Below are positions 5,190 to 6,464 of a DNA stretch of 56,578 bases, piece after piece. The translations under genes and the position numbers were made by a program. This stretch comes from a virus. How positions within the stretch are numbered: the stretch's first letter is position 1; each line of letters starts with the position of its first letter. A model generated the notes under the pieces. That model was not told the origin of the DNA, ran no database searches, and saw nothing but the letters and a program-made list of their open reading frames with translations. The stretch is taken from positions 1 through 56,578 of the IMG/VR virus record IMGVR_UViG_3300030012_003637; one strand, 5' to 3'.

Positions 5190-5194
5190 AATAT

Positions 5195-5336
5195 TGCCCA
5201 GTAGAGCAGTAGGTAGCTCACTCTGGCTTAACCCGGCGCGAAGCAGATCTTTAACGTGAAGTGAAGCTTGTAATACAATCGATCGTGAAAAGCAAAGGGG
5301 TTAGAGAGGTCGCAGGTTCGAGTCCTGCCTGGGTCA
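5195..5336 (+). tRNA. tRNA-like gene interrupted in the anticodon loop (possible tRNA-Pro)
   Basis: The 5' half is canonical: acceptor strand 5195-5201, T8/A9, a 4-bp D stem GAGC/GCTC around an AGTAGGTA loop, then CTCTG. The 3' half is canonical: TAGAG, a 5-nt variable loop, T arm GCAGG-TTCGAGT-CCTGC (5312-5328), and acceptor strand 5329-5335 pairing with the 5' strand (first pair T-C mismatched, second G-T). Between the anticodon-stem strands lie about 76 nt instead of 7. Removing 5230-5296 would leave a CTTGGGG loop, anticodon UGG (Pro), but this is only one reading. The insert is far too short for a group I intron. AACCC (5230-5234) can pair with GGGTT (5298-5302). Confidence 0.6.
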
Positions 5337-5350
5337 ACTAAATATAAATT

Positions 5351-5513: not shown

Positions 5514-6464
5514 ATGATAAGAACAGCAGAATGTATAACACCAAAGCATCCAGATAAGATATGTGATAGAATATCTGATGCTATTTTAGATGCTTGTTTG
5601 GAGCAAGATCCAAACTCAAGAGTTGCAATAGAAACAATGGGAGGTCATGGAATTATATCTGTGACAGGAGAGCTAACAACATCAGCTTATGTAGAAATAC
5701 CTGATATAGTTAGATCAGTATATGACGATGAAATAGGCATACAGGTAAATATAGTTAAACAGTCTCCTGAAATATCTCAAGGAGTAGATACTGGAGGAGC
5801 AGGAGATCAAGGAATAATGATAGGTTACGCATGTAATGAAAATGAAGAAATGGTTCCGGAAGAATATTATTTAGCTCGTAAACTATGTAAAGAAATATAT
5901 AAGAAATATCCTTTTGATGGTAAAACTCAAATAACTATTAATGAACATAACCAAATAAGGGTAGTAGCTTCTTTTCAAAATGCTCCTGCAGCAGAGTTAG
6001 GTAAGATTATTACTAACTTTTTTATGCCTACTAATTATTCAGTTATAGATGTACATTGTAATCCTGCTGGAGATTGGAATATAGGAGGATTTACAGCTGA
6101 TACTGGTTTAACTGGAAGAAAATTAGCAGTAGATAACTATGGACCTAGAATTCCTTTGGGAGGAGGTGCCTTTTCAGGTAAAGATTGTTCTAAAGTAGAC
6201 AGAAGTGCTGCATATGCTGCTAGAAAAGTAGCGGTAGATTATTTAAAAAAATATAATGCTAAAGAAGTTTACGTAACTCTAGCTTATGCTATTGGATATG
6301 ATCAACCTCTTCAAGCAACAGCTACAGTAGATGGCAAACAAATTATTATAGAAGATTATGATTTATCTCCTAATGGAATATGTTCTATGTTAGACTTAAA
6401 GAAGCCTATATTTAGTAAAACTGCTGAATGGGGACATATGGGAAATAACTTTAATTGGAAATAA
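5514..6464 (+). CDS. metK: S-adenosylmethionine synthetase (methionine adenosyltransferase)
   Basis: Makes SAM from methionine and ATP. The family signatures are all present: KHPDKICDRISDAILD near the N-terminus (the usual GHPDK His is kept, the Gly is Lys), GGAGDQGIMIGYA in the middle, and GDWNIGGFTADTGLTGRK plus GGGAFSGKDCSKVDRSAAY at the C-terminal side. At 316 aa it is shorter than the roughly 380-400 aa of cellular enzymes, as in a trimmed phage version. In its neighbourhood are a SET-domain protein, an MTA/SAH-nucleosidase-like protein and adenine phosphoribosyltransferase, which together suggest SAM turnover. Activity is likely because the catalytic loops are intact. Confidence 0.95.
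   Translation: MIRTAECITPKHPDKICDRISDAILDACLEQDPNSRVAIETMGGHGIISVTGELTTSAYVEIPDIVRSVYDDEIGIQVNIVKQSPEISQGVDTGGAGDQGIMIGYACNENEEMVPEEYYLARKLCKEIYKKYPFDGKTQITINEHNQIRVVASFQNAPAAELGKIITNFFMPTNYSVIDVHCNPAGDWNIGGFTADTGLTGRKLAVDNYGPRIPLGGGAFSGKDCSKVDRSAAYAARKVAVDYLKKYNAKEVYVTLAYAIGYDQPLQATATVDGKQIIIEDYDLSPNGICSMLDLKKPIFSKTAEWGHMGNNFNWK

Follow-up and report, generated by a model that had tools for sequence, protein, structure and literature searches.

For the tRNAs of phages, the usual explanations are codon supply and escape from tRNA-cutting defences. Non-coding RNAs that mimic tRNA are already known as such, tmRNA and YrlA among them, and in engineered tRNA scaffolds a cargo RNA is placed in the anticodon arm. 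YrlA is a non-coding, tRNA-mimicking RNA of 90-150 nt (PMC8394870); according to a 2014 review of group I introns in bacteria, the introns known from phages at that time all lay in protein-coding genes (PMC3984707). The RNA gene described here represents a new RNA family. It lies in a window of 56,578 nt, the whole stretch of DNA that was analysed, from a marine phage that probably infects Bacteroidota; the closest isolate is Flavobacterium phage immuto, with a polA 68% identical.

At 5195-5336 the window holds an RNA gene shaped like a tRNA, with 76 nt (5226-5301), enclosed by a 5-bp anticodon stem (CTCTG/TAGAG), in place of the 7-nt anticodon loop; position 1 of the tRNA is 5195 and its discriminator base is 5336. 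The mature RNA, as we infer its ends, probably spans about 5195-5336 with an added CCA (Table 1).

Table 1. Features of the RNA gene in the window, the neighbouring ORF and the type B relatives
Feature	Position	Strand	Support
Whole RNA gene with insert, apparently initiator-tRNA-derived	5194..5341	+	R1 175.7 bits over full model; 26-member alignment
Acceptor stem, 5' strand; U1.C72 mismatch, G2.U71 wobble	5195..5201	+	
D arm GAGC-AGTAGGTA-GCTC, A11:U24; identical 16 nt in several Bacteroidota initiator tRNAs	5204..5219	+	
Anticodon stem, 5' strand, extended to 7 bp (27-33)	5221..5227	+	
Invariant UUAA bulge where the anticodon would formerly have stood	5228..5231	+	32/32 members (constancy inflated by search patterns)
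Structured insert, 68 nt, type A long form	5232..5299	+	R2 93.2 bits; helix 5232-5234/5297-5299 covaries
Optional hairpin in insert: outer AAGC/GCTT, inner CTT/AAG, loop TAACGTG	5241..5269	+	Compensatory changes, C-G to U-A and U-A to A-U
Core CGATCGTGAAAAGC, most conserved; final GC pairs with 5238-5239	5280..5293	+	
Anticodon stem, 3' strand (37-43)	5300..5306	+	Covariation
T arm GCAGG-TTCGAGT-CCTGC	5312..5328	+	Covarying stem, invariant GGTTCGAGTCC
Acceptor stem, 3' strand, and discriminator A; CCA not encoded	5329..5336	+	
50-aa ORF; missing, as is the RNA gene, at the polA-metK junction of L002 and L019	5351..5503	+	
Type B members	L032:6429-6571, L033:7672-7814, L036:2579-2721, L051:727-869		

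Structure and conservation

With introns allowed, ARAGORN reports a tRNA at 5194-5338 that contains a 67-nt 'intron', and makes no intron-tRNA call in any of 100 dinucleotide-shuffled windows; with introns off there is no call. The Rfam tRNA model (RF00005) reaches 16.2 bits in the window, on the 3' half only, against a gathering cut-off of 29 bits, while the short-form member L034 scores 33.7 bits and L054 45 bits; the long form is missed by default tRNA finding. The folding energy of the window sequence taken alone is not below that of shuffles (z 0.01), and since thermodynamic folding is uninformative, the case rests on covariation among relatives.

Scans of IMG/VR, of which seven patterns were productive, gave 33 distinct members after removal of ordinary tRNAs (L050, L053, L056, L057 and L061 were discarded on this ground); their contexts vary, phage tRNA genes are often close by, and 20 records hold one copy each. 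Across the 26 type A members, whose minimum pairwise identity is 60%, the named 34-pair structure has 98.2% of its cells paired, as against 83.8% for shuffles and no more than 53.3% for slid pairs. Double-sided change is seen at 21 of the 34 pairs (12.7 in shuffles, at most 10 in slid structures), the double-sided changes in the alignment number 117 versus 30, and RNAalifold recovers the same frame independently. The acceptor, D, T and anticodon stems all covary, forming a tRNA cloverleaf whose acceptor, D and T arms have their canonical shape; the two halves covary in the relatives as well and are not unrelated there. The sequence-only reading, which had described a tRNA with 76 nt in place of the 7-nt loop, is thus borne out by the ARAGORN call, the shuffles and the covariation, and its coordinates hold; its third option, a tRNA disrupted by insertion, is excluded by an insert that is conserved and covarying in 33 members.

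The anticodon stem has 7 bp, namely five canonical pairs, a covarying 32:38 pair (G.U, A-U or C-G) and C33:G37, present in all. The normal 7-nt loop with U33 and a readable anticodon is absent; C33:G37 and the UUAA bulge occur in 32 of 32 members with a mean column identity of 1.00, an apparent constancy inflated by the presence of CTTAA in four of the seven patterns, and the bulge is also found in seven members first found without the CTTAA requirement (L028-L031, L047-L049). Beyond the UUAA bulge, which lies on the 5' side, a helix opens with C:G and its other pairs vary yet stay paired, CCC/GGG covarying with CUC/GAG, CCA/UGG and CCU/AGG, and with CUGAAG/CUUCAG in L051; a two-pair GC step and the core follow. 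An earlier proposal that AACCC and GGGTT extend the anticodon stem was slightly off in its register, which in the relatives runs through C33:G37, the 4-nt UUAA bulge and then CCC/GGG.

The insert is modular in length, 37-39 nt in the short form, which lacks the extra hairpin, and 62-70 nt in the long form. The core, with the consensus CGAUCGUNAAAAGY, is nearly or fully invariant in type A, long and short alike; its mean column identity is 0.91, to be set beside 0.79 for the acceptor stem, 0.63 for the end positions and 0.84 for the anticodon stem of the tRNA body. In types B (L032, L033, L036, L051) and C (L054) the frame is unchanged and the insert differs, consisting of a hairpin whose loop contains UAAUUA and a distal core unlike that of type A. 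The 8-nt loops of type B carry the 6-nt palindromes AUGCAU and GUGCAC, which recall kissing-loop dimer sites, and type A has an invariant CGAUCG; dimerization through such palindromes is suggestive, but it was set aside, as type B offers no more than two variants and type C has none.

Parentage, distribution and genomic setting

Judged by its sequence, the tRNA body derives from an initiator tRNA(fMet) of Bacteroidota or phage, a parentage that is newly added here. The best 20 R1 matches fetched from Bacteroidota genomes are without exception initiator tRNA-Met(CAU); since ten candidates were scored per genome, it is on these top matches that the isotype claim depends. Several of the 20 share the 20-nt GTAGAGCAGTAGGTAGCTCG with family members, and in one genome the initiator reaches 65.6 bits, followed by another tRNA at 49.9. 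Of 32 members, 30 are mismatched at 1:72 or 2:71, compared with 6 of 48 ordinary tRNAs of the same set, four of the six being tRNA-Met. The 1:72 mismatch itself is present in 24/32 members and A11:U24 in 23/32, and the window has both. A Y11:R24 pair, unlike initiators, is found in 9/32, so that either the chassis has drifted or some members come from other tRNAs; in type C the acceptor stem is well paired. The CAU anticodon and the three G-C pairs of the initiator anticodon stem are missing from the family, and the window's GGCUUAACCCG can be read as the initiator GGGCUCAUAACCCG minus the anticodon CA and one G. Two loci encode an initiator tRNA-Met of their own (L017:16721-16798, L051:653-727), directly followed in L051 by the element; a phage-encoded initiator tRNA-Met is the likely parent type.

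Within the collections searched, the family is restricted to phages. Model R1, which gives known members 69-176 bits, retrieved no true member from 296 Bacteroidota genomes, the listed matches all being tRNA-sized and at most 65.6 bits; on genome contigs a strict pattern had no match, and the 14 matches of a looser one were dismissed as chance, with no surrounding tRNA. Searches of members against named phages by blastn returned only ordinary tRNA T arms and one odd, unrelated tRNA-like gene, and the complete genome of phage immuto lacks the element. No free-standing copy of the cargo outside the tRNA chassis was found, a weak R2 match in L011/L012 being discarded as not member-like, with the tRNA halves missing. 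Rfam holds no matching family beyond tRNA itself, and no description of such an RNA was found in open-licence papers. Two other unannotated genes were noticed: in Cellulophaga phage phi13:2 (L099:1949-2035) a tRNA-like gene missed by ARAGORN, with a 7-bp acceptor stem, additional D-side sequence and a very short anticodon arm, and in Streptococcus phage Javan85 (L027:231-440) an ARAGORN tRNA-Leu that contains an insert of 135 nt and precedes the gene for the terminase small subunit.

The gene upstream of the element varies: it is polA in the window, QueC at at least ten loci, a 47-aa ORF in six, with tRNA-Gln or small predicted proteins at other loci. Roughly half of the members have their RNA begin 4-7 nt past the stop codon of the gene upstream. 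The polA-metK gap, filled in the window by the RNA gene and the 50-aa ORF, is only 10 nt in L002 and L019, and a copy of the element is present at another place in the L019 phage (L041; G003:82743-82892). An empty site together with a copy elsewhere in the same phage indicates that the whole gene moves and that the insert stays with it; the insert-less version of the locus that the sequence-only reading had suggested looking for in relatives was not what they held, the whole gene being missing there. As for the neighbourhood, metK (a phage-encoded S-adenosylmethionine synthetase) lies at 5514-6464 of the window and directly follows the pair formed by the element and the 50-aa ORF; Hsp20, GroES and GroEL come further on, and queF lies at 513-1424; the loci with queC, of the 7-deazaguanine pathway, upstream are L028, L029, L032, L034, L037, L039, L048, L049, L059 and L063.

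Function and competing explanations

With moderate confidence, we read the element as a stable, non-decoding phage RNA of about 142 nt, derived from an initiator tRNA and bearing a structured module in the anticodon arm; a tRNA-derived regulatory RNA is also the best fit of the three options raised at the outset. In the course of evolution an initiator tRNA(fMet) would have lost its CAU anticodon and grown the module in its anticodon arm. The RNA would be co-transcribed with the upstream gene, and established tRNA biology suggests that RNase P and the 3' tRNA-processing enzymes would excise it, that its tRNA fold would protect and stabilize it, and that it would stay uncharged. A role in decoding is not expected, because a readable anticodon is missing; the variable acceptor stem and discriminator base speak against a single synthetase that charges the RNA, which should also stay off EF-Tu owing to its initiator-type acceptor mismatch. 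The insert, with the UUAA bulge and the CGAUCGUGAAAAGC core, would be held out at the anticodon position to bind protein or RNA. The likeliest target would be translation-initiation or tRNA-processing factors that recognize the initiator body; next comes a role as decoy for a tRNA-targeting defence enzyme, and then a phage partner. Neither 16S/23S rRNA nor the window itself shows complementarity that is significant or beyond chance. A bolder proposal, possible but rather doubtful, has the phage use the RNA as a weapon or shield: the RNA would enter the initiator-tRNA pathway, where its module would block or redirect translation initiation during infection; its point of entry may be IF2, the formyltransferase, the 30S P site or a defence enzyme that targets initiator tRNA.

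A small tRNA intron of a new class, by which 66-70 nt (or 37-39 nt) would be cut out and the halves rejoined into a working tRNA, is the explanation to which the position of the insert lends itself, as it lies at the canonical intron site, in agreement with ARAGORN, and has the constant UUAA/C33:G37 context expected of splicing. However, no normal loop would result: excision leaves a 6-bp stem, or C33 with the anticodon UUA (ochre, in canonical numbering), CAU is impossible, and the UGG reported earlier is the product of one arbitrary splice choice. An ochre suppressor formed by splicing was rejected, since window genes mostly end in TAA (24 of 37 checked) and C33 is abnormal. The insert, at 37-70 nt, is far below group I size, as had been remarked from the sequence, and has neither a catalytic core, which takes well over 100 nt, nor an Rfam intron match; its single 4-nt bulge is not an archaeal bulge-helix-bulge, and RtcB or a PF09414 RNA ligase is present in 0 of 13 phage records. 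The acceptor stem and N73 vary, and no intron-less homologue was seen. Since relatives lack the whole gene and the core is as conserved as the exons, the intron is unlikely.

Still less probable is a cis-acting processing signal, in which an RNase P cut would give the upstream mRNA its 3' end and its stability and the insert would be secondary: the short distance to the upstream stop codon, kept behind the unrelated queC, 47-aa ORF and polA, speaks for it, but an ordinary tRNA would suffice, several members instead follow tRNA-Gln or tRNA-Met, and the insert core and UUAA bulge are left unexplained. A phage Y RNA of YrlA type, with a tRNA-like module and a protein-binding stem that tethers the Ro60/Rsr ring, is very improbable. 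One domain of such RNAs resembles a tRNA in its acceptor, D and T arms (PMC8394870), and L051, the only matching member, gives a weak model match (15.8 bits, E 0.66, cut-off 69), with none for types A and C; however, TROVE/Ro60 protein is found in 0 of 16 records, and the 5' and 3' ends, which in YrlA build the protein-binding stem, here build the tRNA acceptor stem. That the gene is related to tmRNA, or is a tRNA pseudogene in decay, is scarcely credible: tmRNA likewise has its anticodon arm replaced, and L051 has a tiny T-arm match of 11.3 bits, but the D stem covaries, the alignment shows no conserved tag frame and 3:70 is C-G in most members and never G.U, the alanine identity pair G3.U70 being missing, while a pseudogene would not covary.

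On the favoured reading of a stable, non-decoding RNA, this phage family appears to keep an initiator body and to abandon decoding, its module being conserved as strongly as the tRNA itself, and would provide a natural example of RNA carried in a tRNA anticodon arm. It also offers a direct way to ask whether phages influence initiation through an initiator-tRNA mimic, in hosts whose ribosomes do not use Shine-Dalgarno pairing (PMC9976891).

Comparison with known systems

The closest counterpart is the Bacteroidota initiator tRNA(fMet), with which the element shares the D arm GTAGAGCAGTAGGTAGCTCG, A11:U24, the 1:72 mismatch, the V loop AGGTC and the T loop TTCGAGT; differently from it, the element has no CAU and no GGG/CCC anticodon stem, and carries a 37-70 nt insert with the UUAA bulge. 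YrlA (RF02553) is alike in size, tRNA mimicry and possession of a second functional module, whereas its module topology differs, no Ro60/TROVE gene was found here and the match is not significant. In tmRNA (RF00023) a tRNA-like domain is likewise joined to a long insert that replaces the anticodon arm; the phage element, in contrast, has a D stem, no tag frame, no G3.U70 and an insert of just 37-70 nt. Group I introns of bacterial tRNA genes also interrupt the anticodon loop, but the element is far smaller and lacks a catalytic core, and no intron-less allele has been seen. Among phage stable RNAs, T4 RNAs C and D (species 1 and 2; 139 and 119 nt) lie by a tRNA cluster, and RNA C has a 3' T arm; R1 gives RNA C (L084:909-1047) only 14.5 bits (E 0.37), on its 3' end, and with no shared insert it is not a homologue by this model. 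Finally, the engineered tRNA scaffolds for recombinant RNA (PMC3753655) are similar in that a cargo RNA is housed in a tRNA body for stability; conversely, the phage element is natural and initiator-based, and its cargo is conserved.
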